From: a bacterium | GTDB lineage: Bacteria; T1Sed10-126 | Direction of reading: 5' to 3' | Length of the DNA stretch: 18,804 bases | NCBI GenBank assembly: GCA_003557545.1 | Contig: PWOD01000186.1 | Coordinates: 1-18,804, forward strand | Shown here: positions 1,126 through 15,711 of the stretch, piece after piece | How positions within the stretch are numbered: the stretch's first letter is position 1 | Layout of the letters: each line of letters starts with the position of its first letter | Program-made: the position numbers and the translations under genes | The notes under the pieces: generated by a model | What the model saw: only the letters and a program-made list of their open reading frames with translations | Told to the model about the DNA's origin: nothing | Databases searched by the model: none

Positions 1126-1185
1126 TTTCTATCTTTCTGTGAGTAGGATACAAAAAATTTTACGCATGCTGGGAGGCTTTTGGTC

Positions 1186-2133
1186 GTGAAATATAACTTA
1201 CCATATCAGGATAAATATGGGTTTTGTAATATATTAATGTCTGCTATCGGTGGTGATGGTGCCAATACTGTCGGAAAGATGGTGTTTGAACTGGGGGTTC
1301 ATCAGTTCAATCTTGATGGTGGTTATGATGCCAAATACGGCTCAGAAAAAACCGGCACTCCAACATCAGTTTCGATTCGTCTCTGCCCCGACTGTACCAA
1401 CATCCGTTTTAGCGGGCCAACGCTTTTCCCCCAGATTCTTATTGGGTTTCATCCCCGGGTTTTAATTAAACAGAATTTCCATAAAAACCTTCCGGAAGAT
1501 GCTACGGTGGCCCTTAACACTACGATGACTCCGGCAGAGGTTCGTGAGGAGTTACAGCTATATGGTGGACGTGTTATAACTCTTGATGCTAAGAAAATAG
1601 TTGAAGAGACCGGTTCCCGGCTGAATATGCCGATGCTCTGGGTTCTGGTCAAAGTTCTGGATTTCCCCTTTGATGAGGTTGAGGCCGCGGTTGCTAAAAA
1701 GTGGCCGGCTTTTAAAGAAACTAATCTTTCCGCTTTCCATCAGGCTGAGGAGATATTTCAGGATGAGTATTTTGAACCGGATGAAAAATTTAAGCAGGCT
1801 CCTGAAAAAGCATCCGGACCTTCACAGATTGGCTATGAAAATATGCCTTATGGTGCCAGCTTACCGGCAAAATATTTTCTCTCAGATCCACATCCGGAAA
1901 GGACCGAGGCACTGGGTTCTACGCCACAGTTTGACCCGGATATCTGTATTCACTGTGCAAACTGTGATCTTATCTGTCCCGATCCAGGAGCTATTGTTTT
2001 TGATGAACAAAAGATGCAGGGGATTAATTCTACATACTGCAAACGCTGTATGCGTTGTGTTACAGTCTGTCCCCAGACTAAAAAAGGGAAGGCTTTGACA
2101 ATGCCTTCCAAAACCAAAGAGGAGGCAAAATAA
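1186..2133 (+). CDS. 2-oxoacid:ferredoxin oxidoreductase, fused gamma-delta subunit
   Basis: A 315-residue protein with two parts. Residues 10-180 match the gamma (POR/KOR catalytic gamma) domain: a glycine-rich AIGGDGANTVG loop (20-30) followed by the GGYDAKYGSEKTG segment (45-57). Residues 248-300 form a bacterial-type 2[4Fe-4S] ferredoxin (delta) domain, with ligands C254, C257, C260, C264 and C285, C288, C291, C295. It would carry electrons from the thiamine-diphosphate site in the partner subunit to external ferredoxin in the cytoplasm. GTG at 1186 is preferred because it lies 9 nt after GGGAGG; an upstream in-frame TTG at 1180 is only 3 nt from that site. The stop overlaps the next start (TAATG), indicating translational coupling. 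The substrate (pyruvate, branched-chain or aryl 2-oxoacid) cannot be assigned. Confidence 0.88.
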   Translation: MKYNLPYQDKYGFCNILMSAIGGDGANTVGKMVFELGVHQFNLDGGYDAKYGSEKTGTPTSVSIRLCPDCTNIRFSGPTLFPQILIGFHPRVLIKQNFHKNLPEDATVALNTTMTPAEVREELQLYGGRVITLDAKKIVEETGSRLNMPMLWVLVKVLDFPFDEVEAAVAKKWPAFKETNLSAFHQAEEIFQDEYFEPDEKFKQAPEKASGPSQIGYENMPYGASLPAKYFLSDPHPERTEALGSTPQFDPDICIHCANCDLICPDPGAIVFDEQKMQGINSTYCKRCMRCVTVCPQTKKGKALTMPSKTKEEAK

Positions 2134-4397
2134 TGGGTTCAAAGGAAAAACAGACCGAGTTGGAGGAGGGGGCTGCTGCGGTAGCCCAAAAGATTGAGGT
2201 TGTTAATGGTAATGATGCGGTGGCTCGCGCCATTGTACATGTCGGATATGATGGTGAGGGTTATTATCCGATTACACCCTCCAGTGATGTGGGTCATGAG
2301 GTTGATCGGTTATTTGCTGAGGGTGAGACTGATGTTCGGATAGTCAGGGCCACCAGCGAACTGGCCGCCATCAGTGTGGCAGCAGGAATGTCTCTGGCCG
2401 GAGGTAGGGTTGTAGATGTGACATCGGCTAACGGGCTGCTGCTGAAAGCTGAGGAGATGCCGGTTATTAGTGGGCTTGGTCTGCCCGTAGTTATGAATCT
2501 GGCCACCCGTGATGTCTCAGCTCCACTTAATATAAAAAATGGTCATAGTGATCTGGCAGCTGCACTCGGATATGGATGGATGATCTTGCTGGCCCCTAAT
2601 GTTCAGGCGGCCTATGATATGAATATTATCGCTCCCCGGCTGGCGGAAGCGGTTAATTTACCTGTTCTTGTCGCTTATGATGGTTTTCATACCTCTCATG
2701 GAACCCGAAAAATTAGAGTTTTTGAAAATCGTGATGATGTGCGTAAATTTGTTGGGGAGCCTCCCGAAAGACCAACCTTTTTAGATGTTGATGATCCTCG
2801 CACCTTTGGACCCTATATGAATGATGATCTGATCAACACTAAAGTTGTTATTGAAAAAAAGATGGAACGGGCTGCCGACCTGCTTCCGCAGTTCTTTGCA
2901 GAGTTTGCTGAGTTGACCGGCCGTCAGTATTCTGAAGTTCTTTCTTATGGCGACGATCAGGCAACCGCTGGTATGATTGCCCTGAATACTGCTGGAGAAA
3001 CAACCAGAGTTGCCGTTGATGATCTGGCCCAGGAAAATATCCAGACTCGGTTGATTGAACCGTTGGTACTTAGACCTTTCCCCGGAAAACAGCTTTTAGA
3101 GGTTGTTTCTGGCCTTGATACCCTGGTCTGCGCTGAAAGGGTATCTCAATATGGAGCTGGCAACTATCTGGCCAATGAGCTGGGAGCGCTGCTTCAACAG
3201 CATGGTATCAACAGTACTATACTTGAGCGGACCTATGGTATTGGTGGGCTCAGGTTCGATGTGGATGATGCAAAAAACCTTCTGAAACTGGCCGTTGATT
3301 ATCCTGACCTGTCTGAAGATCAAAAGAAACGTAAGGATTATTATGGCGCCTGGCCCGGCGATGTCGATGCTGAACTGGAAGAAAAAATGCAGCCGCTGTC
3401 GGCGGAGGATACTATTTTCACTCTTGACGCTGATGATGATAAGGCCCGCAGCCGGGTAAATACTCGTCAGTTAACTGAAATGCCCTCCCGAATCGGTCCC
3501 CATTCGGCCTGTCCGGGTTGTGGTATTTTTGCTAATCTGGATACCTTTCTGCGGGGTATTGAGGGTCACGTGGCAGTTCTTTTTAATACCGGTTGTGGTA
3601 TGGTGGTTACTACCGCATTTCCGGAAACATCTTTTAAAATTCCTTATTTTCATAATCTTTTCCATAATGCGTCCAGTACCGCAACTGGAATTACTGAGAT
3701 TTATCAGCGGTTCAGGGAGCAGAATAAAATCGATGAGGAGATAACTTTTATTGTTGTTTCCGGTGATGGTGGTAATGATATCGGTATGGATCAGGTTATC
3801 GGCTGTGCCCTGCGTAATGATCCTTTTATTCTTCTGGAATATGACAACAAGGGTTACATGAATACTGGGAATCAGGTCTGTTATACCGGTTATGAGGGTC
3901 AGTATAATACTAATGCAAATGTTGGTCCCGAACAGATTGGTAAACCTCACGCCCATAAAGATATTGTGGAGATCTTGCGGGGAACTTATGCGCCCTATCT
4001 TTTCCAGGCTGCTGATGTTGAACAGCGTGATATGATCGCCAAAGCCCGGAAAGCACAGGATGTCGTTCGCTCGGGTGGATTTGCCTTTGGAAAGCTTTTT
4101 TCTGTCTGCCCGCTTAACTGGGGCCTGGCTTCCCATAAGGGACCAGAAGCGGTTAGCAAAGCAATTCAGAGCTGTGTCTTCCCGCTTTATGAGATTGAAA
4201 ATGGTAAGACAGTTTTGAACAAGAATCCCGAAAAACGGGATAGTAAGATACCGGTTTCTGAGTTTCTGGCCTCCATGGGTAAGGCTTTTGCACATCTTAA
4301 TCTCGAGGACAATCCCGAGCTTGTGGATAAGATTCAGGGGGATGTTGATTATCGCTGGGAGCGACTTAAAGCTCTGGCGGATCATGATCTTCTTTGA
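2133..4397 (+). CDS. 2-oxoacid:ferredoxin oxidoreductase, fused alpha-beta subunit
   Basis: A 754-residue fusion. Residues about 22-380 are the alpha (pyrimidine-binding) region with YPITPSSD (45-52) and the adjoining transketolase-C-like domain II. A charged linker of about 65 residues leads to the beta region (448-754). Beta carries the thiamine-diphosphate/Mg motif GDGGNDIG (544-551) with the downstream NKGYMNTGN, and cysteines C460, C463, C488 and C659 placed like the ligands of the proximal [4Fe-4S] cluster of pyruvate ferredoxin oxidoreductases. With the gamma-delta protein it makes all four classical subunits from two genes, catalysing CoA-dependent oxidative decarboxylation of a 2-oxoacid with ferredoxin as acceptor, or the reverse. 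Its start overlaps the previous stop by one base. An extra cysteine (C583) follows the NTGNQ motif. Substrate is not determinable. Confidence 0.88.
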   Translation: MGSKEKQTELEEGAAAVAQKIEVVNGNDAVARAIVHVGYDGEGYYPITPSSDVGHEVDRLFAEGETDVRIVRATSELAAISVAAGMSLAGGRVVDVTSANGLLLKAEEMPVISGLGLPVVMNLATRDVSAPLNIKNGHSDLAAALGYGWMILLAPNVQAAYDMNIIAPRLAEAVNLPVLVAYDGFHTSHGTRKIRVFENRDDVRKFVGEPPERPTFLDVDDPRTFGPYMNDDLINTKVVIEKKMERAADLLPQFFAEFAELTGRQYSEVLSYGDDQATAGMIALNTAGETTRVAVDDLAQENIQTRLIEPLVLRPFPGKQLLEVVSGLDTLVCAERVSQYGAGNYLANELGALLQQHGINSTILERTYGIGGLRFDVDDAKNLLKLAVDYPDLSEDQKKRKDYYGAWPGDVDAELEEKMQPLSAEDTIFTLDADDDKARSRVNTRQLTEMPSRIGPHSACPGCGIFANLDTFLRGIEGHVAVLFNTGCGMVVTTAFPETSFKIPYFHNLFHNASSTATGITEIYQRFREQNKIDEEITFIVVSGDGGNDIGMDQVIGCALRNDPFILLEYDNKGYMNTGNQVCYTGYEGQYNTNANVGPEQIGKPHAHKDIVEILRGTYAPYLFQAADVEQRDMIAKARKAQDVVRSGGFAFGKLFSVCPLNWGLASHKGPEAVSKAIQSCVFPLYEIENGKTVLNKNPEKRDSKIPVSEFLASMGKAFAHLNLEDNPELVDKIQGDVDYRWERLKALADHDLL

Positions 4398-4507: not shown

Positions 4508-4536
4508 TTGACTGCATAACGATATGGTTATATAAT
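4508..4536 (+). promoter_or_regulatory. Near-consensus sigma70 promoter of the arsR-trx-MMPL operon
   Basis: TTGACT (4508-4513) and a perfect TATAAT (4531-4536) are separated by exactly 17 bp. This is the strongest promoter in the window. A strong core promoter with an operator in the spacer is typical of an operon kept off by a repressor. Transcription would start near 4543, giving a short leader to the ArsR start. Confidence 0.8.
4516..4531. promoter_or_regulatory. Candidate ArsR operator: ATAAC-N6-GTTAT
   Basis: A perfect 5-bp inverted repeat with a 6-bp centre fills the promoter spacer and overlaps the first base of the -10 box. ArsR/SmtB dimers commonly bind AT-rich imperfect palindromes of this sort and autoregulate. 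The arsR-type gene starts about 30 bp downstream, so autorepression is the simplest reading. Position and symmetry are seen; binding is inferred. Confidence 0.5.
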
Positions 4537-4560
4537 TATGAAGTTTTAGAGATTCCAGCT

Positions 4561-4938
4561 ATGGTGGAGATGATCGATTTGGTTCAACCTTTAGATAATT
4601 CGGATGATGTCTGTCATAAGATTTCCGACCTTTTTCGGGCGTTAAGTCATCCTATCAGAATAAAAATAGTTCGTGAACTTAATAGAACCCCGAGTAATGT
4701 CAGTTCTCTACGTGATATTCTGGGCAGCAGTCAGGCTAATATTTCTAAACATCTCAACGTTCTTCTGGAGAGCTCATTGGTTGAACGGAAGCGTGAAGGG
4801 GTAGAAAATATTTACCGGCTGGTTAATTCCCAGGTACTTGAACTCTGTTGTTGTGCCCTGCGCTGTATAAAACATCAACTTCAGATTGAAATTAATCTTT
4901 TGGAATGTCTTGATACGGCTGAATCTCAGTTTGACTAA
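4561..4938 (+). CDS. ArsR/SmtB-family transcriptional regulator, cysteine-rich
   Basis: A 125-residue winged-helix protein with the ArsR hallmarks FRALSHPIRIKIVREL (25-40) and the recognition-helix segment SSQANISKHLNVL (56-68). The classical metal motif ELCVCDL is absent from alpha3. Instead there is one N-terminal cysteine (C18) and a cluster in the C-terminal alpha5 helix (C96, C97, C98, C102), plus C116. One alpha-helical Cys near the N-terminus paired with Cys in alpha5 resembles persulfide/redox sensors such as SqrR and BigR; alpha5-type metal or metalloid sites are the alternative. It is the first gene of the operon, with thioredoxin 22 nt downstream. ATG at 4561 has a weak ribosome site. 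An in-frame TTG at 4579 lies 9 nt after GGTGGAG (4563-4569) and may be the true start, removing six residues. Confidence 0.85.
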   Translation: MVEMIDLVQPLDNSDDVCHKISDLFRALSHPIRIKIVRELNRTPSNVSSLRDILGSSQANISKHLNVLLESSLVERKREGVENIYRLVNSQVLELCCCALRCIKHQLQIEINLLECLDTAESQFD

Positions 4939-4960
4939 TCTAATTATGGAGTGATTGCTG

Positions 4961-5269
4961 ATGACGCAAAATTTAACTTCTGACCAGTTTCAAAACAAGG
5001 TGATTGAGGCCTCTAATGAGGAAAAAATCGTGGTTGATTTCTGGGCTCCCTGGTGTGCACCCTGTCAGATGCTGGCTCCTACTCTTGAGCAGGTCTGTCA
5101 GGAGTCCGGGGTGAAGCTTTACAAGGTAAATGTTGACCAGGCTCCGGAACTGGCTCAAACCTATGGTGTTCGTGGTATACCAGCAGTTAAGTTGTTTCAC
5201 AAGGAACAGATTATCAATCAGTTTACCGGAGTTCAACCGGCCACTAAAATTAAGCAGTTTTTACAGTGA
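4961..5269 (+). CDS. trxA: Thioredoxin
   Basis: A 102-residue single-domain cytoplasmic thioredoxin with no signal peptide. The active site is WCAPC (31-35) in the context VDFWAPWCAPCQ, with the cis-proline at P74 (RGIPAV). It would reduce disulfides or persulfides. The usual WCGPC is replaced by WCAPC, a known natural variant. ATG at 4961 lies 7 nt after GGAGTG; the upstream in-frame TTG at 4955 is too close to that site. Its place between a Cys-rich ArsR regulator and a transporter suggests it serves that operon, for example by resetting the regulator or delivering thiols, rather than being the housekeeping thioredoxin. That role is inferred. Confidence 0.9.
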   Translation: MTQNLTSDQFQNKVIEASNEEKIVVDFWAPWCAPCQMLAPTLEQVCQESGVKLYKVNVDQAPELAQTYGVRGIPAVKLFHKEQIINQFTGVQPATKIKQFLQ

Positions 5270-5303
5270 TTTTTCAGTTGATTAGCGGAGAGGAGTTTTT
5301 TAA

Positions 5304-7634
5304 ATGAAACAGAGTTGGAAAAGTTGGTTACCCCGTTTTTCCTGGGATCATCCCTACGTACTATTTACAGTTGTTTTATTATTAACAGTTCTGGCAGCTT
5401 TCCAATTTCCTAATATTGAGATTAATACTGATCCGGAGGATATGTTATCAACTGATCATCCGGCCCGGGTGGAGGACCGGGAGATAAGTGATGAGTTTTA
5501 TATTCATGATATGGTAGCTGTTGCCCTTGCTCTTCCAGAGGATCAGTCTGACCTGAATGTAGAACGGTTTCGGCTGATTTATGATCTTATTCGGGAAATC
5601 GAGCGGCAACCCGGTGTTATCAGTCAGGATATTATCAGTTTTTATACCAGTGATGATATTGAGGGGTTTCCCGGTGGAATTGAGGTCGAACGGTTTCTTC
5701 GGAGCCCACCTGCCAGTTCTCAGCAAGTAGAGCGGCTGCTTGACAGAGTTGAACAACATCCAATTTTAGAGGGTATGATTGTTAATCGGGAAACCGGCGG
5801 AATTGCCCTTTTCATACCACTTCGTGACAAACAATATAGTTACCCGCTCAGTCAGGCGGTTCTACAGTTCTGGGATCAGCAACCTTCTGATATCGGCCAG
5901 CTGCACATTGCCGGTCTGCCGGTTGCGGAGGAGACTTTTGGGGTCCAGATGTTCTATCAGATGGCGACGACAGCTCCATTGGCTTTTCTTATTATCGGTC
6001 TGCTTATGTTGCTGTTCTTTCGCAGTTTTAGTCTGGTTACCTGGGCGCTGTTACAGGCGGCGGTGGTGGTTGTCTGGATAATGGGGGCCCTGATTGGTCT
6101 TGGCTATACGGTCCATATAATGAGTTCTATGATTCCGATTTTTCTTCTACCAGTAGCGGTTGTTGATAGTATTCACATACTGAGTGATTTCACTGACAGG
6201 ACTGCTCCCGACAGATCGCCGCGTGATACGATGGCAGAAGTTTATGAGGATATCTTTTATCCAATTCTCTTTACATCCCTGACTTCAGCCGCCGGCTTTT
6301 TTTCCCTCGCCACTACGGGGATTCCACCTGTACAGGTCTTTGGGGTGGCGGTGGGGATCGGTATTCTGGTAGCCTTTTTTACCACCCTTACAGTTCTCCC
6401 GGCCGGAGCCCGGCTCTGGACACCTGATCCCCGGACCAGGGGAGATAAATCATTTGTTGCTAAACTGGTTAGTTGTTGTGATGATTGTTCCTGTGTTGCT
6501 CGGCAGCACCCCTATCTGGTTGTTATAGTAGGTCTTTTATTACTGCTCTTCGGTCTGGCCGGAATGACCCGGATAACTGTTAACGATAATCCTACTCGCT
6601 GGTTTATGGCCGGTCATCCGATTCGTGAGGCAGATAGTTTTATTAACCAAAATTTTGCCGGTTCCTATCCTGCTTACATGGTTCTGGAGCACCAGGAAAA
6701 TTGGTATGATCCTGACCAGCTGGCCCGGTTGGATCGGCTGGCGGCGCGTCTGGAACAGCATCCAGGAGTGGGGAAGGTTACCTCTGTAACCGATCTTGTT
6801 CAAAAAATTCACCTGGAACTGCACGGTGGAGAACCTCCATCTCAGCTGCCAGCAACTTCAGCCGCTGTTCAGCAGTATCTGTTTCTTTTTGAAAACAGTG
6901 GTAATCCTCAGGACCTGTTTCGATTAATAACTTTTGATGGGACCCGCATAAATATCTGGTTTAATCTTCTCAGCGGGGATAATCAGGTAATGGCTGATGT
7001 TAAGCAGACCAGCAATCAGCTGGTTTCTCAAGCCGGGTTCGATCTTTCAGAAAATAATCCTGAACCGGAGTGGGCCGGAATAACAGTGGTAAACTTAATC
7101 TGGCAAAACGTCATGGTTAGAGGAATGGCCTGGGCACTTCTTAGCAGTTATATTGTAGTTTTTCTGATGATGATAATACTTTACCGCAGTTTGCGCTGGG
7201 CCATCTTGTCCCTTGTGCCACTTACTTTTACTCTGGTTCTGGTCTACGGGCTGGTGGGCTGGGTAGGTAAGGATTATGATATGCCAGTCGCGGTTCTTTC
7301 GGCCTTGAGTATCGGTATTGCCGTTGATTTTGCGATCCATTTTATTCAACGAGGCCGCCAGCTTGTCGAACAGACCGGCTCCTGGGAGCTGGCCCGGGAA
7401 AAAATATCCGGCGAACCTGCCCGGGCTATTGTGCGTAATGGAATCGTCATTGCAGTTGGTTTTTCACCCCTTTTACTGGCACCTCTGGTACCCTATGTTA
7501 CTGTGGGAGTTTTTATGATTTTAATTATGTCTTTTGCCGGATTTTCAACCCTTTTGGGACTGTTTGCAATCTTTCAGATAACTCATGCTTATTTACCATT
7601 TAAATTTCAGGAGGTAGTATCCGATGACAGTTAA
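5304..7634 (+). CDS. MMPL/RND-family transporter (HAE3-like), inner membrane
   Basis: A 776-residue protein made of two homologous halves, as in the RND superfamily. Helix 1 (about 18-34) is followed by a large extracytoplasmic loop (35-220) and a five-helix bundle (222-370). Helix 7 (403-420) is followed by a second loop (422-600) and another bundle (608-762). Each half has an intramembrane aspartate in the proton-relay position: D288 (VAVVDSIHIL) and D675 (GIAVDFAIHF). The family uses proton motive force to move lipids or hydrophobic compounds out of the inner membrane. Odd: the cytoplasmic segment just before helix 7 holds four cysteines in seven residues (C391, C392, C395, C397; SCCDDCSC). 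The start lies 8 nt after AGGAG, and the 3' end overlaps the next gene by 11 nt. The LolA-like and beta-barrel partners follow in the same operon. Confidence 0.88.
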   Translation: MKQSWKSWLPRFSWDHPYVLFTVVLLLTVLAAFQFPNIEINTDPEDMLSTDHPARVEDREISDEFYIHDMVAVALALPEDQSDLNVERFRLIYDLIREIERQPGVISQDIISFYTSDDIEGFPGGIEVERFLRSPPASSQQVERLLDRVEQHPILEGMIVNRETGGIALFIPLRDKQYSYPLSQAVLQFWDQQPSDIGQLHIAGLPVAEETFGVQMFYQMATTAPLAFLIIGLLMLLFFRSFSLVTWALLQAAVVVVWIMGALIGLGYTVHIMSSMIPIFLLPVAVVDSIHILSDFTDRTAPDRSPRDTMAEVYEDIFYPILFTSLTSAAGFFSLATTGIPPVQVFGVAVGIGILVAFFTTLTVLPAGARLWTPDPRTRGDKSFVAKLVSCCDDCSCVARQHPYLVVIVGLLLLLFGLAGMTRITVNDNPTRWFMAGHPIREADSFINQNFAGSYPAYMVLEHQENWYDPDQLARLDRLAARLEQHPGVGKVTSVTDLVQKIHLELHGGEPPSQLPATSAAVQQYLFLFENSGNPQDLFRLITFDGTRINIWFNLLSGDNQVMADVKQTSNQLVSQAGFDLSENNPEPEWAGITVVNLIWQNVMVRGMAWALLSSYIVVFLMMIILYRSLRWAILSLVPLTFTLVLVYGLVGWVGKDYDMPVAVLSALSIGIAVDFAIHFIQRGRQLVEQTGSWELAREKISGEPARAIVRNGIVIAVGFSPLLLAPLVPYVTVGVFMILIMSFAGFSTLLGLFAIFQITHAYLPFKFQEVVSDDS

Positions 7635-7824
7635 TCGTGCACTACGCTTAACCGCTGGAATCATTGTTGGTCTGTCAGTTTTACTGGCTTATTTTCATTC
7701 ACAATACTGGCTCTGGTTAACCGGATTTGTCGCTCTTAACCTAATCCAGTCCGCTTTTACTGGAGGTTGTCCGGCCAGCTGGTTTTATCGTTCGATCGGG
7801 TTGAAAAACTGTTGTGATGATTAA
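7624..7824 (+). CDS. Small two-helix membrane protein, DUF2892/YgaP-like transmembrane domain
   Basis: A 66-residue protein starting with VNRALRLTAG, then two hydrophobic helices (about 9-24 and 29-46) and the NLIQSAFTGGCP motif (39-50), which is the signature of DUF2892. In YgaP this domain anchors a rhodanese; here it stands alone. Family members are often found next to sulfur-handling or thioredoxin-type genes. Arginines at both ends suggest N-in, C-in topology. The tail ends in LKNCCDD, placing two further cysteines on the cytoplasmic side. The start overlaps the MMPL gene by 11 nt and uses AGGAGGT inside that gene, so the two are translationally coupled. The function is not established. 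Confidence 0.85.
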   Translation: MTVNRALRLTAGIIVGLSVLLAYFHSQYWLWLTGFVALNLIQSAFTGGCPASWFYRSIGLKNCCDD

Positions 7825-7851
7825 CTTATTCTTTTAGGAGGTTGTTCTGTT

Positions 7852-8682
7852 ATGAATCATCGTTGTAATTTCATTACTTTGATTGTTGCTCTATTATTTA
7901 TTCTCTCTCCGGCGGTCCTGCAAGCTTCTGCTGAACTACCTGCAGAGTTTGAAACCGCCCTTGAACTGGCTCTGGAGTCTTACGAAGCCTCATATTTTCC
8001 CGGTGAGGATGTTCGCTGGCAGGTTGAAATGGAAATAGTTGATTCTCGGGGGCGAACCCGAGGACGTGAACTGACGATTTTACGTAAAAACCTGGCAGAA
8101 TACCGCCAGAAATATTATGCTTATTTTCATCAGCCTTCACAGCTTTCTAGAATGGTTTTTCTGGTCTGGACCCAGGCGGAAGCTGATGACGATCGCTGGC
8201 TTTATATGCCGGCAACCGATATGGTCCAGAGAATCTCCGGACGTCAAAAACGCAGTAGTTTCGCCGGTTCCGATTTCACCTATGAAGATATGACCGGTCG
8301 CCATCCGGCTCAGGATCAGTTTAGTTACCTTGGAGTTGAGGAGCTGGATGGTCGTCAGCTTTATCTCCTTCGTGGAGAACCGCTCGATTCTTCTCTGGTT
8401 GAATTTGCCCATTATAAGATGTATATCGATACTGAAACCCTGCTGGCCCTTCGTGGTGAATTTTATGATCCACAGGGAGAACTTCATAGAACTCTGACTG
8501 TTGAACAGGTTGAGGAGATCGATGGTTATCCGACTCCGATAGTTCAGCGGGCGAAAAATCACAGTACCGGCTCAGAAACGGTAAATACCATGTCGGAGAT
8601 CGAATATGATCTGGGAATTCCAGAAAATATTTTTCAAGAGCGCTATTTGCGCCGTCCGCCTACGCCATGGATTACACCCTGA
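7852..8682 (+). CDS. LolA-like outer membrane lipoprotein-sorting family protein, periplasmic
   Basis: A 276-residue protein with a clear signal peptide (hydrophobic 8-20, likely cleavage after LQASA near residue 27). The mature part matches the LolA-like family that accompanies MMPL transporters: DRWLYMPATDMVQRISG, then RSSFAGSDFTYEDMTGR, YLLRGEP and a C-terminal EIEYDLGIPENIF segment. This fold is a half-barrel that shields lipid. The sequence alone does not say whether it carries lipoproteins or another hydrophobic cargo; the neighbouring pump and barrel favour the latter. The start lies 11 nt after AGGAGG. There are no cysteines in the mature part, so it is probably soluble rather than a lipoprotein. 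Confidence 0.85.
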   Translation: MNHRCNFITLIVALLFILSPAVLQASAELPAEFETALELALESYEASYFPGEDVRWQVEMEIVDSRGRTRGRELTILRKNLAEYRQKYYAYFHQPSQLSRMVFLVWTQAEADDDRWLYMPATDMVQRISGRQKRSSFAGSDFTYEDMTGRHPAQDQFSYLGVEELDGRQLYLLRGEPLDSSLVEFAHYKMYIDTETLLALRGEFYDPQGELHRTLTVEQVEEIDGYPTPIVQRAKNHSTGSETVNTMSEIEYDLGIPENIFQERYLRRPPTPWITP

Positions 8683-8718
8683 GCTATATAAACCGAACTT
8701 TTTTGGAGGTTTAACCAG

Positions 8719-10023
8719 ATGTTACTGTGCAAACTAAAATCGCTATCTTACCTTGGATTTTTCCTTTTCGTTCTGTTGGTCAGTCATGGTTATAGTCATA
8801 TAAAACCGGCGTCGGCGGCGATTAATCTACGTGGGTTTGTTGAACCTGCTTATTCTGTCAGATTTGACAATGTCGGACCAATATCAGATCGTAATATGCT
8901 CAATGAAACCCGGTTTATTATGGAAAATCAGTGGTATGGTCGTCAGGGGGAGATGCTCGATCTAAGGTTGCTTGGTGCTGCTGATTTTTCCACCGGTCAC
9001 TCCTCTGATCTGGAATTAAGAGCCGCCTCTGTTTTTGTCCCGTTAACTACTAATCTTGAATTAAGTTTAGGTCGTCAGGTACTGGATTGGGGTCCGGCTC
9101 AGTTTGAGTTTGTTAACGATTATTTCAGCAAGGATTTTACAGCTTTTTTTCTGGGCCGTGATCTAGAGTTTATGAAGGCCCCTTCCGATGCGCTACGGGT
9201 GCGCTGGTATTCAGCTCTTGCTGATTTTGACCTTGCTGTAATTCCTGAATTTCATTCCGATATTGGCCCGGCAGGGCAGAAGATTCCTCTTGTCCATCCT
9301 GATCCAGACACGGGACTGGTTTCGGCTGATCAGCTCCGGGCTGCTGGTATCGATCAAACTTTTCCAGTTTCATCTCCGGAGCGGGGAGAGGTTCATTTGA
9401 GAATTAGTCGCCTGGTTTCTAGTTGGGAAACTGCTCTCTATGGTTATCGTGGTCATACAGGAACTCCTGCAGGATATGATCAGCAGGCTGAACAGTTCTA
9501 TTACCCCCAGCTGGCGGCGGTTGGCGGTTCTATCCGCGGCCCCCTTCTTGGCGGAATATTTTGGTCGGAAGTCAACTATGAGGATATACGCGAACCGCTA
9601 GCCGGCGATACTGTTGGTCTGCCTCCCGATCAGTTTAACCTGCTCGTTGGGTATCAGTTTGATCCGTCTCCTGAGAGACGCTATCTGCTTCAGGCTCACT
9701 GGCTACGTCAGCTCAGTGCGGACGGCCTTCGAGCTGCTCTTGTTGATCAGCCGGACCATCCTCTGGCAGAACGTGATCGTTATCGAGTTCAATTTGCCGC
9801 AGAACAGAGTTTTCTGGCAGATCGACTGACCCTCGCTGCCCGGTTTTTTTGGGGAATACAGGTTGAGGATTGGCATCTTCGGTTGGAAGCTGATTATCAG
9901 TGGAGTGATGCTGTTAGGTTTTATCTGGGGACGCTATTTTATGATGCGGAAAATCCAGCCTCCCGATTTGGTCCGCTACAGGATCACGATCTAATTTATA
10001 CCCGGTTGAGATACAGTTTTTAA
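8719..10023 (+). CDS. DUF1302-like outer-membrane beta-barrel protein
   Basis: A 434-residue protein with a signal peptide (hydrophobic 11-22, probable cleavage near ASA at 31-33). The mature part has alternating polar/hydrophobic strands and no further transmembrane helix. The segment LELSLGRQVLDWG followed by the VNDYFSKDF region resembles DUF1302 barrels, which occur beside LolA-like and MMPL genes in Proteobacteria. It ends in YTRLRYSF; a C-terminal aromatic in an amphipathic strand is the usual signal for insertion by BamA. This supports a diderm host. It follows the LolA-like gene by 36 nt, with GGAGG 10 nt before the start. It may be the outer-membrane acceptor or exit channel of the system. 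Exact family membership is less sure than the barrel call. Confidence 0.75.
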   Translation: MLLCKLKSLSYLGFFLFVLLVSHGYSHIKPASAAINLRGFVEPAYSVRFDNVGPISDRNMLNETRFIMENQWYGRQGEMLDLRLLGAADFSTGHSSDLELRAASVFVPLTTNLELSLGRQVLDWGPAQFEFVNDYFSKDFTAFFLGRDLEFMKAPSDALRVRWYSALADFDLAVIPEFHSDIGPAGQKIPLVHPDPDTGLVSADQLRAAGIDQTFPVSSPERGEVHLRISRLVSSWETALYGYRGHTGTPAGYDQQAEQFYYPQLAAVGGSIRGPLLGGIFWSEVNYEDIREPLAGDTVGLPPDQFNLLVGYQFDPSPERRYLLQAHWLRQLSADGLRAALVDQPDHPLAERDRYRVQFAAEQSFLADRLTLAARFFWGIQVEDWHLRLEADYQWSDAVRFYLGTLFYDAENPASRFGPLQDHDLIYTRLRYSF

Positions 10024-10095: not shown

Positions 10096-10296
10096 TTGCC
10101 GACTTATCAATATTCCTGTGAAAGCTGTGATGCAAAGTTTCAGCTGCAAAGACCAATAGATCAGCGTGATACTGAGATAAGCTGTCCCGATTGTTCTTCT
10201 GACAGAGTTCATCGATTGCTCAGTCAGTTTTCCGTTGGCAGTTCCTCCTCGGTTGATACCAAGCCATGCGCTGGAGGAAGCTGCCCATTTTCCTGA
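10096..10296 (+). CDS. FmdB-family zinc-ribbon protein
   Basis: A 66-residue protein beginning MPTYQYSCESCDAKF, the hallmark of the FmdB/CxxC_CxxC_SSSS family. Zinc-ribbon cysteines are C8, C11, C30 and C33 (CPDC). A serine-rich tail carries two more cysteines (C58, C63; CAGGSC), as is common in the family. FmdB-type proteins are small regulatory or accessory proteins of mostly unknown role. The TTG start lies 8 nt after AGGAGG. It follows the beta-barrel gene by 72 nt on the same strand with no convincing terminator between, so it may be read through from the ArsR operon. Confidence 0.85.
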   Translation: MPTYQYSCESCDAKFQLQRPIDQRDTEISCPDCSSDRVHRLLSQFSVGSSSSVDTKPCAGGSCPFS

Positions 10297-12678: not shown

Positions 12679-15600
12679 ATGGTTTTCAAACTTAAGCCTG
12701 CCCGATTTTTTCAAATTTATTGCTATTCTCTTCAGCAACTATTTAAAGCTTATTTTTTTGTCCAGTTCTGTCTGCTTCTGTTGATTTTATCAGGACAGCT
12801 GTTTGCCCAGCCCCGGGTGGAAACATTAGCCCCCGAGGTTCTCTCCGACACAGTCGTGGTTTTGCATGGAGAACTGGTAGATCCCGGTACGGCCCCATCC
12901 GTATTTCAGTTTTTTCAGTACCGCCGTAAAGCGACTGTTAACTGGAATATTTTGCCGGTGGATTATAGCAGTAACCCCGGTCAGTTTGAGTATACCCTCT
13001 CCGATTTGCAGTCGGCTGTAGAGTATGAGTTCAGGGCTGCGGCTGAGGGAAACTCCCGGGTTTATGGAGATCAGCACCGCTGGGTTACTGATCACAGTCT
13101 TGTCTGGCAAACCAATTATGATTGGCAGCGGGCTGTTGAGCAACAGCGGACAGTTATTGCAGATGATTATCTAACTCTCGATGATGCCAATCTTCAGCTT
13201 GAAAAAAATGCAGTCGATTGTTTGGACTGGGAAAATCATTTTTTTCAGCAAAATTTAGTCTGTCAGGACAATAGTTTAAGTTTGGCCCATCCGGAGGAGT
13301 TTGACACAAAAATCTTTGAACCGACTTCCACGGGCCGGGATGGTGAGATACAGCAGTGGGTTGTTCCCTTCACCGGTGAATATAGAATTACAGCCTATGG
13401 GGCCGCCGGTGGAGGCGGAGATGGTTCGGCAGGTCAGGTTATGCCTGGCGGAGCGGGTGCCCGAATGGCCGGTAATTTTCAGCTTAAGCAGGGGGAAACT
13501 GTGGAAATTTTAGTCGGTCATCGTGGAGAAGGAGATACGACTGGAGCAGGAGGCGGGGGGGGGAGTTTTGTAGTTTTAGAAGATCCGGTTTCTGAAACCG
13601 ATATTCTGCTGATCGCCGGTGGAGGTGGAGGAGGTGGTGAACATGGCGCCGGGGTAGGAGCTGTCACGGCGTCTAATGGGACCCAGGATAGTGAGGGGGG
13701 TAACCATGGTGGGGTTGATGGTTATGGTGGACAGCTGCTGGGGGGTGCCGGCACTGCTGGAAATGCCGGGTCCGGTGCTGGAATATGGGGTGATGGCGAA
13801 GCCGATGGTCATGAATTATCTCTGGCTTTTATTAACGGCGGAATCGGTGGTTCGGGCGGCGGACTTACTCCCGCTCATGGGGCTGAGGGTGGGTTTGGCG
13901 GCGGCGGCGGCGGTTTTCATCATAACTGGGGTCCGGCCGGAGGAGGCGGGGGAGGATATTCTGGCGGGGCGGGTGCTTACCGAGAACAAAATTTAAATCG
14001 GGGTGGCGGAGGGGGTGGTTCCTATAATAATGGTACAGCTCAGTCTAATCAGGGAGCAGTTAATCAGCAGGATGGTCTGGTGATTGTTGAGGTGATCTCC
14101 CGGGAACCTGGATTCCGAATCTCTCAGCCCCTGGAGCTCTCCGAAATCAAAGGGGTCACAGGCTCTTATATTAACTGGCAGGCAGATCAGCCGGGAACAT
14201 CAACTGTTAAGATAGATGTTGCTATTAGCCACTCGCCCGACACCTATCCGCTTGATCAAACTGCCTGGTCGCTGGCTACCCCGTCAAATCCTCTGCCGGG
14301 GATCTCTCCCGGAGATGATCTGACTGATAAATATCTCTGGCTCCGGCAGCGGTTTTATCCCCAGGATTTTGATTATCACCCGCAGCTTAACTGGCTTGAT
14401 CTGCAACTTGAGGGATATACGGAACCGTCTGGCCACCTCCTGACCGAACCGGCTGGTATGCTTCCTTCAAAACCGGTCCTGGTTGATCTTGAATACCGAT
14501 TGAATGGGGGGCAGATTGAACTGGTAGTTGTTGGCAGCCCGGATAGTAGTGATTCTGAAACTGTTGGGCCGGTAATTCTTGATGGTTCCGATACTGCTCA
14601 ATTAGACTGGGAGCAAGCCCATGCCGCCTTTCAGGTAAAGATTTATCTGGAAGCAGATAATCTAAACGATTTTCCTGAGTTTTCCAATCTTACCCTGGTT
14701 CCTTATTACAGCTTGAATGTCACTAAATTGGGCGAAGGAGAGGTTGCAGTAAATGGTTTTGACTATCTTGATCAATTTGAATTTAGAGCTGGCGAATCCA
14801 TAGTAGTTACTGCTGAGCCCGCCCCTTATTCCAGTTTTCTTGGCTGGGCGGGTGAGTTTACCGGGAAGGAAGCCCCGCTTTTTTTTTCGATTGATCAAGA
14901 TTATGATCTGACCGCGATATTTGGCCGCGACACCTATTTACTGACAGTCGAACTGTTTGGTCCGGGACAGGTGCAGGTGAATGGTGAAACTTATCCGGGA
15001 GCTGCTGTAGAGCTAATTGCCGGGGAAACTGTTACCCTCCAGGCAGATCCCGTCGATCATTACATTTTCACTAACTGGGGATATGATATTACCGCTAAAG
15101 ATGATCTGGTTGAATTGTTTATTGATCAGGATTTTGTTGTTTCAGCGCATTTTGACCAGGATTATCATGAACTTGAAATTGATCCTCAGCCGGGCGGTCA
15201 AATATTTATCAATGGTGATAGTTACCCGGGTCATCCTGTCCAATTACCAGCTGGAGAAACTGCCACGTTGGAGATTATCGTGGATCCTGGCTGGGAGTTT
15301 GCTGGATGGAGCGGGGATTTTTCTGGCGAGCAAGATAAGCGGGTTGAGTTTGTTCCTGATAGGGATCTTCAGATTGGAATTGAGTTTTCTCCGGTGTTAC
15401 TTGCTCCTGGTCTGAGTAATTTTATCGTTGGTCCTAATCCCTTTATAGCTGGCGATGGAAATTATGCCACCGGAGAGGATCAGCTGCTGTTTCAGTTCAA
15501 TAGTACTGCTTCCGGACCTTTCAAAATCAAGATCTATTCAATCGGCGGCGGACTTGTCTTTGATACTGTCTATCGTGGTTCAACCAACAGATATCATTGG

Positions 15601-15711
15601 TCCCTTAAAAATAATTCTGGCCGGTCGGTTAGCAGTGGTTATTACATCTATTATGTTGAAGAGCTATCAACCGGTGCTTCGGTTACCGGAAAACTGGCGG
15701 TTGTTCGCTAA
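12679..15711 (+). CDS. Exported glycine-rich (ALK/LTK-like domain) surface protein with InlB-type repeats and FlgD-Ig-like C-terminus
   Basis: A 1010-residue protein. A long-n-region signal peptide ends near LFA (41-43). Residues 45-140 look fibronectin-III-like. Residues 220-472 form a glycine-rich domain with the ALK/LTK-type pattern: TGEYRITAYGAAGGGG (232-247), then GNFQLKQGETVEILVGHRG (265-283), and DILLIAGGGGGGG (308-320), with several G6-G8 runs. Residues 480-675 are probably beta-rich and unassigned. Three divergent InlB-B-type repeats follow (677-749, 752-826, 828-904), each with a GxxxVNGxxY core and a GW or NW motif. Residues 906-1010 match FlgD-Ig-like/secretion-tail domains: VGPNPF (917-922), IKIYSIGGG (950-958), SGYYIYYVEE and a final GKLAVVR. 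This is an adhesin- or matrix-like surface protein by architecture; partner and anchoring are unknown. The ribosome site is weak. Confidence 0.75.
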   Translation: MVFKLKPARFFQIYCYSLQQLFKAYFFVQFCLLLLILSGQLFAQPRVETLAPEVLSDTVVVLHGELVDPGTAPSVFQFFQYRRKATVNWNILPVDYSSNPGQFEYTLSDLQSAVEYEFRAAAEGNSRVYGDQHRWVTDHSLVWQTNYDWQRAVEQQRTVIADDYLTLDDANLQLEKNAVDCLDWENHFFQQNLVCQDNSLSLAHPEEFDTKIFEPTSTGRDGEIQQWVVPFTGEYRITAYGAAGGGGDGSAGQVMPGGAGARMAGNFQLKQGETVEILVGHRGEGDTTGAGGGGGSFVVLEDPVSETDILLIAGGGGGGGEHGAGVGAVTASNGTQDSEGGNHGGVDGYGGQLLGGAGTAGNAGSGAGIWGDGEADGHELSLAFINGGIGGSGGGLTPAHGAEGGFGGGGGGFHHNWGPAGGGGGGYSGGAGAYREQNLNRGGGGGGSYNNGTAQSNQGAVNQQDGLVIVEVISREPGFRISQPLELSEIKGVTGSYINWQADQPGTSTVKIDVAISHSPDTYPLDQTAWSLATPSNPLPGISPGDDLTDKYLWLRQRFYPQDFDYHPQLNWLDLQLEGYTEPSGHLLTEPAGMLPSKPVLVDLEYRLNGGQIELVVVGSPDSSDSETVGPVILDGSDTAQLDWEQAHAAFQVKIYLEADNLNDFPEFSNLTLVPYYSLNVTKLGEGEVAVNGFDYLDQFEFRAGESIVVTAEPAPYSSFLGWAGEFTGKEAPLFFSIDQDYDLTAIFGRDTYLLTVELFGPGQVQVNGETYPGAAVELIAGETVTLQADPVDHYIFTNWGYDITAKDDLVELFIDQDFVVSAHFDQDYHELEIDPQPGGQIFINGDSYPGHPVQLPAGETATLEIIVDPGWEFAGWSGDFSGEQDKRVEFVPDRDLQIGIEFSPVLLAPGLSNFIVGPNPFIAGDGNYATGEDQLLFQFNSTASGPFKIKIYSIGGGLVFDTVYRGSTNRYHWSLKNNSGRSVSSGYYIYYVEELSTGASVTGKLAVVR
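13555..13563 (+). repeat. Homopolymer G9 in the glycine-rich coding region
   Basis: Nine consecutive G encode three glycines (about residues 293-295) directly before SFVVL. As sequenced the frame is open. A change of one G would move translation into a frame that soon stops and remove the repeat and C-terminal domains. It may be only a by-product of GGN codons. Confidence 0.6.
14707..15390 (+). repeat. Three tandem InlB-B-like protein repeats (coding)
   Basis: Residues 677-749, 752-826 and 828-904 of the exported protein repeat one plan of about 73-77 residues: a leading hydrophobic strand, GxGxVxVNG, a tyrosine or aspartate turn, an AGE(S/T) segment (704-707, 781-784, 858-861), a W-containing loop (LGWAGEF, TNWGYD, AGWSGDF) and a closing (A/E)xF strand. 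The repeats are divergent, so recent duplication is unlikely. Confidence 0.65.

Follow-up and report, generated by a model that had tools for sequence, protein, structure and literature searches.

The characterised cassette closest to the operon described here is AmeABCD of Castellaniella defragrans, in which an HAE3-type pump, a LolA-superfamily protein and a DUF1302 barrel are encoded together (PMC6394551). Repressors of the ArsR type are also encoded beside RND, TauE, persulfide dioxygenase (PDO), rhodanese and SQR genes (Li et al. 2025; PMC12423496), and ArsR regulators with two sensor cysteines (SqrR/BigR/YgaV) sense reactive sulfur (PMC12423496). Little is understood of the way in which bacteria get hydrophobic zero-valent sulfur, or organic compounds derived from it, through two membranes. 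Here we analyse an operon on the + strand (positions 4508–10023) of the window, the whole 18,804-nucleotide stretch that corresponds to positions 1–18,804 of contig PWOD01000186.1 from a bacterial genome of 2,151,867 bp. It is a compact operon for an envelope-spanning transporter, encoding, in this order, an ArsR repressor, thioredoxin, an MMPL/RND pump, a DUF2892 (YgaP-type) membrane protein, a LolA-like protein and a DUF1302-like barrel, and its pump belongs to a clade tied to sulfane-sulfur genes. The operon is probably controlled by its ArsR, and we tentatively favour the reading that it specifies an ArsR-repressed, proton-driven exporter that would move some hydrophobic compound, formed under stress by sulfane sulfur or a related thiol, from inner to outer membrane.

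The link to sulfane sulfur comes from the gene neighbourhoods of related pumps. A search that used only the pump as query against 84,980 species genomes, where loci were picked by exact peptide motifs of the window pump and its own clade was hence favoured, yielded 60 loci, or 61 with the window included; several are near-copies (Idiomarina, Kangiella, Marinobacter), related species are not independent, and the gene calls at the loci were mechanical. LolA-like and barrel genes lie directly downstream of the pump in nearly all of the 60 loci, which span many phyla. When near flanks (407 kb in total) were compared with far flanks (550 kb), ArsR genes were present in the near flank of 39 of the 61 loci and in the far flank of 4, and genes for a YgaP-type transmembrane protein (YgaP-TM) in 30 and 1, respectively. 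The near and far counts were 13 and 2 for rhodanese, 7 and 2 for PDO, 6 and 2 for SQR, 5 and 0 for DsrE, and 2 and 0 for TauE; about 17 of the 61 loci have genes of one or another of these families near the pump. Because the family profiles used for the flank counts were seeded from the loci themselves, we scanned the neighbours separately with Pfam; among 112 neighbour genes, ArsR (16) was followed by FAD/NAD disulfide oxidoreductases and rhodanese (7 each), and then by DsrE, metallo-beta-lactamase and TauE, among others. Five further genomes with closer homologues all contain the core, four of them with ArsR and three with YgaP-TM, and rhodanese, PDO and TauE appear there as well.

By contrast, 20 more distant MMPL loci that served as a control, the comparison to which we give most weight, include LolA-like genes in 8 cases and barrel genes in 6, with no ArsR, YgaP-TM, rhodanese, SQR, DsrE or TauE and one weak metallo-beta-lactamase match. 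The difference in ArsR between the pump clade and the distant loci has a Fisher p of 1e-7 (not corrected for shared ancestry). The pump tree places the sulfur genes in two of its deep branches. Individual loci identified by Pfam and NCBIfam matches illustrate the association: a Kangiella locus encompasses PDO-like, SQR-like, rhodanese and ArsR genes, and a locus in a Desulfobacterales metagenome-assembled genome (MAG) encodes an ArsR-rhodanese fusion, a SelD-like AIRS protein and TauE. Several apparent neighbours on the opposite strand (F6 and others) arise from spurious reading frames within the LolA-like gene and were disregarded.

In three unrelated lineages, a SelD or SelD-like gene adjoins the pump cassette (L036:8161-9129, L095:3855-4748 and L139:3402-4427). 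The annotated gene order in Ilyobacter polytropus (Fusobacteriota) is FAD oxidoreductase, SelD, YedF, DUF3343, a small protein, LolA-like, barrel and pump. The presence of SelD beside the cassette at L036, L095 and in Ilyobacter hints at a selenium link.

These comparisons change the picture given by the first-pass annotation of this DNA, which had presented the linkage of ArsR and DUF2892 to the MMPL, LolA-like and DUF1302 families as special to this lineage: the linkage is common in relatives, and the pairing of RND and ArsR genes had already been published (PMC12423496). The complete set of six is confined to the two T1Sed10-126 genomes, the window genome (G000) and its sister (G001, with the pump locus L035), so that the expected conservation of the full set fails, whereas the core and its ArsR and DUF2892 partners are kept in relatives. 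Thioredoxin is the only unusual member of the cassette in this lineage; it was rejected as a regular component of the cassette, being found only in the window, in L035 and in L085, where it is 2 kb away. The further suggestion of a thiol- or metal(loid)-responsive export system gains support on the thiol side, from ArsR, YgaP-TM and sulfur genes beside the pump in some ten phyla and at essentially none of the distant pumps; the data neither establish nor exclude a metal(loid) response.

The three envelope components are recognisable to different degrees. The pump gene (5304–7634, +) encodes an MMPL/HAE3-like RND permease of 776 amino acids that matches PF03176 in two stretches (6e-24, 85.1 bits vs 20.5); its best NCBIfam match is TIGR00921 (HAE3), at 140.1 bits against a cut-off of 351.9, and we therefore call it HAE3-like only. 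By sequence, it is nearest to Dispatched, MmpL4/3 and HpnN. Its structure model (predicted local distance difference test, pLDDT, 89.1) has the RND fold, with RND, NPC1 and MmpL matches at Z 41–43, and resembles AcrB-type pumps, Dispatched, NPC1-like proteins and MmpL5; as is typical of RND proteins, there are two large periplasmic loops and an acidic residue in each of transmembrane helices 4 and 10. The pairs Asp288/His291 and Asp675/His679 in these helices are conserved (Asp288 to 97% and Asp675 to 100%), which fits proton coupling of the pump. The LolA_like protein (7852–8682, +) carries a signal peptide and has the fold of periplasmic lipid carriers; it matches PF17131 over its full length (1e-53, 181.8 vs 30 bits) compared with only 29.0 bits for DUF1329, and matches the solved LolA-fold structures 9tp6, 4z48, 3bk5 and 3buu. 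The last of the three is a DUF1302-like outer-membrane beta-barrel with a signal peptide and a C-terminal RYSF (8719–10023, +), assigned through homologues and a model. The window protein itself has no Pfam match even at E 0.1, and a search by sequence found no solved relative, but 16 of the 39 aligned homologues match DUF1302 (PF06980), and the AlphaFold model of the window protein is a barrel (pLDDT 84.4) similar to Occ/OprD and AlgE (Z ~20–22). With the barrel recognised via the homology of its relatives, the window operon contains the core of an AmeABCD-type cassette.

The YgaP-like_TM (DUF2892) protein (7624–7824, +; 66 amino acids; PF11127, 46.2 bits vs 25.3) contains a CP motif, and its gene overlaps the 3' end of the pump gene. 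The thioredoxin (4961–5269, +, with an alternative TTG start possible at 4955) is cytoplasmic and has an intact WCAPC motif (PF00085, 2e-28; TIGR01068 above cut-off). The ArsR, thioredoxin, pump, YgaP-like and LolA_like proteins all exceed the curated Pfam thresholds. Intergenic gaps in the operon range from −11 to about 36 bp, and most starts are preceded by a ribosome-binding sequence. A seventh gene, fmdB (10096–10296, +, TTG start; FmdB-family zinc-ribbon protein, TIGR02605 above cut-off), directly follows the barrel gene, in the sister genome as in the window, and is probably the last gene of the operon; no convincing terminator was found after the barrel gene or fmdB in the window.

Expression appears to start from a near-consensus promoter, TTGACT-17-TATAAT (4508–4536, +), that matches 11 of the 12 consensus bases and is the sole site at or above this score on either strand of the window, against an expectation of 0.28 in shuffled windows. 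The spacer of this promoter holds the palindrome ATAACGATATGGTTAT (4516–4531; ATAAC-GATATG-GTTAT, palindromic at 14 of 16 positions), and a search of 40 shuffled windows never found such a promoter with such a palindrome. In the sister genome, the orthologous ArsR gene is preceded by ATAAC-TATATA-GTTAT, which directly follows TTGACA and whose arms are part of a perfect 18-bp palindrome. The palindrome at 4516–4531 is located as expected for an operator and probably is that of the ArsR, although binding is predicted from the sequence. The compact six-gene operon with a near-consensus promoter proposed in the first-pass annotation is thus borne out in gene order, coordinates, families and promoter, and its description as an inducible-looking operon for an export system spanning the envelope is likewise supported. 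A wider regulon based on ATAAC-N6-GTTAT was rejected: the two genomes have 5 and 6 such sites, where the reversed control gives 1 and 4; only that of the pump operon has a context common to both. One site, among microcompartment-type genes on contig C83, looks like chance. That contig (G000:C83, L104) carries aldehyde dehydrogenase, microcompartment-shell-like and EutJ-like genes, judged by eye only to be a probable bacterial microcompartment cluster.

The repressor itself (4561–4938, +; 125 amino acids) is an ArsR/SmtB protein (HTH_20, 5e-10; HTH_5, 3e-9) that scores 74.2 bits against a cut-off of 55 for the NCBIfam HTH_metalloreg family and, with respect to the SqrR/BigR/YgaV sensors, 44.2 bits against a cut-off of 155 for NF040642. 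Its Cys18, Cys96, Cys98 and Cys102 are all present in the sister ArsR, with which it shares 50% identity. The general ArsR fold would place Cys18 and Cys96/98/102 at the dimer interface, in helices 1 and 5, where they could act as a thiol switch or else form a site for a metal(loid). Like RexT, this ArsR has a thioredoxin gene adjoining it; the cysteine pair that RexT bears at positions 40 and 41 of alpha-3 is missing, there being no Cys between residues 19 and 95. Across the pump tree, ArsR types group by clade: two-Cys ArsRs of the SqrR/BigR/YgaV type, with one cysteine in the N-terminal helices and the other close to the C-terminus, prevail among relatives and are present in 19 of the 48 classified rows, ArsR-rhodanese fusions in 5 rows from 5 phyla, and ArsRs with cysteines in the last helix in the window, L035 and Kiritimatiellota. 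The same pump module is hence combined with three or more kinds of ArsR sensor.

We propose that the ArsR binds the palindrome inside the promoter and represses its own operon until its cysteine cluster reacts with, or binds, some thiol-reactive agent; the best candidate is sulfane sulfur in the form of polysulfide or persulfide, and the repressor would then come off. Thioredoxin could then reduce persulfides and polysulfides in the cytoplasm, perhaps resetting the ArsR, and the YgaP-type protein may handle sulfane sulfur at the inner membrane. The RND pump would extract a hydrophobic stress product from the inner membrane, be it zero-valent sulfur, an organic polysulfide or a damaged lipid, and pass it to the LolA-like carrier and on to the DUF1302-like barrel for release. 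The gene content and packing, the promoter and palindrome, the families and folds and the clade-specific linkage are shown by the genomic analysis; induction, direction, substrate and every binding and handover step we infer. A more specific version, in which a dedicated exporter of neutral zero-valent sulfur (and possibly selenium) is conserved over some ten phyla with interchangeable ArsR sensors, its RND pump drawing S8-like or organic polysulfanes from the inner membrane for transfer by the LolA-like carrier to the barrel, strikes us as unlikely. A respiratory role was dropped because neither genome has a molybdopterin oxidoreductase (PF00384, the family of polysulfide- and arsenate-type reductases); the lack of this family seems unusual for anaerobes of soda-lake sediment.

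Several observations weigh against the sulfane-sulfur reading. The window operon itself has no rhodanese, PDO, SQR, DsrE or TauE gene, and the pump branch formed by the window and L035 is long, so that function could have shifted; for these two reasons our confidence remains limited. The window ArsR has Arg at the first of the SqrR/BigR/YgaV cysteine sites and hence departs from the two-Cys sensor pattern, a nearby ArsR is missing in 16 of the 48 classified rows of the pump tree, and the enrichments of PDO and SQR are weak taken singly (p 0.04–0.07). In addition, the nearest characterised cassettes act on monoterpenes (PMC6394551) or are induced by alkanes (PMC6304351). A general efflux of hydrophobes or solvents in the manner of AmeABCD, with the ArsR merely reporting thiol-reactive electrophiles, is a rather unlikely alternative. 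AmeABCD, with its HAE3 pump, LolA-superfamily AmeB and DUF1302 AmeA, does confer monoterpene tolerance (PMC6394551), an MMPL/LolA-like protein and a porin-like one of Thalassolituus are induced on n-C28 alkane (PMC6304351), and distant MMPL-LolA-barrel cassettes occur without sulfur genes; yet the window pump clade is set apart by its sulfane-sulfur genes, YgaP-TM and ArsR, and terpene or alkane degradation families are not among the 25 most frequent neighbour families.

A response to metalloids or soft metals, in which the alpha-5 cysteines of the ArsR bind As(III), Sb(III) or similar and the cargo of the pump is a hydrophobic (organo)metal(loid) compound, appears improbable. Cys18, Cys96, Cys98 and Cys102, kept in the sister, could form a thiolate site in a repressor that falls within the metalloregulator subfamily, and E. 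coli ygaVP is tributyltin-inducible according to the title of a reference listed in PMC12423496; however, arsenic families are not among the most frequent neighbours, and both genomes possess a separate Acr3 arsenite exporter. Moreover, the alignments of pump, carrier and barrel contain no conserved Cys, which argues that direct handling of the cargo by thiolates is unlikely and favours a hydrophobic cargo. As the RND/MMPL and NPC1-like fold and the LolA fold both carry lipids, and the barrel is similar not only to uptake channels but also to barrels of the export type (AlgE), the operon might instead serve envelope lipid transport or repair, bringing one of the cell's own lipids to the outer membrane, much as HpnN does with hopanoids, and being turned on upon sulfur or oxidative membrane damage. 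We consider this improbable as well: no lipid-synthesis family is prominent among the 112 neighbours, with phospholipase-D-like proteins in 3 and short-chain dehydrogenases in 2 only.

The host, which the first-pass annotation had labelled a diderm Firmicute, is only in part as described. Its sole close relative, and the only genome of its family, in the compared genome set is the MAG T1Sed10_126 (G001), and the next nearest genomes share the domain only; a Firmicute would have very many relatives in that set and is therefore an unlikely host. The evidence points to the candidate phylum T1Sed10-126, which in GTDB comprises 2 genomes of 2.15–2.2 Mb from hypersaline soda-lake sediment (PMC11382960) and has no cultured members (PMC12942990). 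The diderm part of the label holds: the envelope is diderm, as indicated by the BamA/Omp85 marker Omp85 in both genomes and by outer-membrane efflux genes, namely a TetR-TolC-MFP-RND operon on contig C183 of the window genome, read from the sequences. In this operon (G000:C183, L100, 3292–9864), the frame of the HAE1-like RND pump is split (6460–8802 / 8887–9864). In the sister genome, a sulfane-sulfur and arsenic neighbourhood separate from the pump operon (G001:C45, L153, 3842–18763) encodes DsrE, OsmC, an ArsR-rhodanese fusion and a rhodanese for which a TGA is reported inside the family match, with Acr3 further along. Elsewhere in the window, two genes for 2-oxoacid:ferredoxin oxidoreductase with fused subunits (gamma-delta and alpha-beta) lie just upstream of the operon (1180–4397), and a large secreted glycine-rich repeat protein (12679–15711) has a C-terminal domain that, by eye only, looks sorting- or FlgD-like.

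Set against the described systems, the window operon differs from AmeABCD in its LolA-like protein, which is of the PF17131 family where AmeB is a DUF1329 protein, and in having no extra gene of the size of that for AmeC (COG4447); AmeABCD sits in a monoterpene island, and no ArsR, thioredoxin or YgaP-TM is described there. HpnN and the MmpL lipid transporters share the RND fold, MMPL domains and a lipid-like cargo, but HpnN is described as functioning with neither periplasmic partners nor outer-membrane channels encoded in its operon (PMC6394551). In RexT-TrxA2 of Nostoc (PMC8960804), an ArsR repressor likewise stands beside a thioredoxin gene under its control, but H2O2 is sensed by Cys40/Cys41 of alpha-3, whereas the cysteines of the window ArsR are on other helices, and there is no pump. 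The E. coli YgaVP system also pairs an ArsR-family regulator with the YgaP transmembrane domain, but lacks pump, carrier and barrel, and YgaV has the two-Cys sensor. E. coli YgaP is fused to rhodanese. Our literature search returned nothing on MMPL proteins with sulfane sulfur, nor on LolA/MMPL lipid transport. That RND genes occur near sulfane-sulfur ArsRs was already known (PMC12423496); that survey required two sensor cysteines, which the window ArsR lacks, and its main text describes no LolA-like, barrel or DUF2892 partners. The functions of the DUF1302 barrel, LolA_like and DUF2892 families are largely open, and a cassette that recurs next to SQR, PDO, rhodanese and TauE genes connects them with one stress, with culturable relatives offering testable candidate cassettes. 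As far as the literature examined goes, the new elements are the full set with LolA-like protein, barrel and YgaP-TM, its specificity to the pump clade relative to the control, the range of phyla, the exchange of sensors and the operator.

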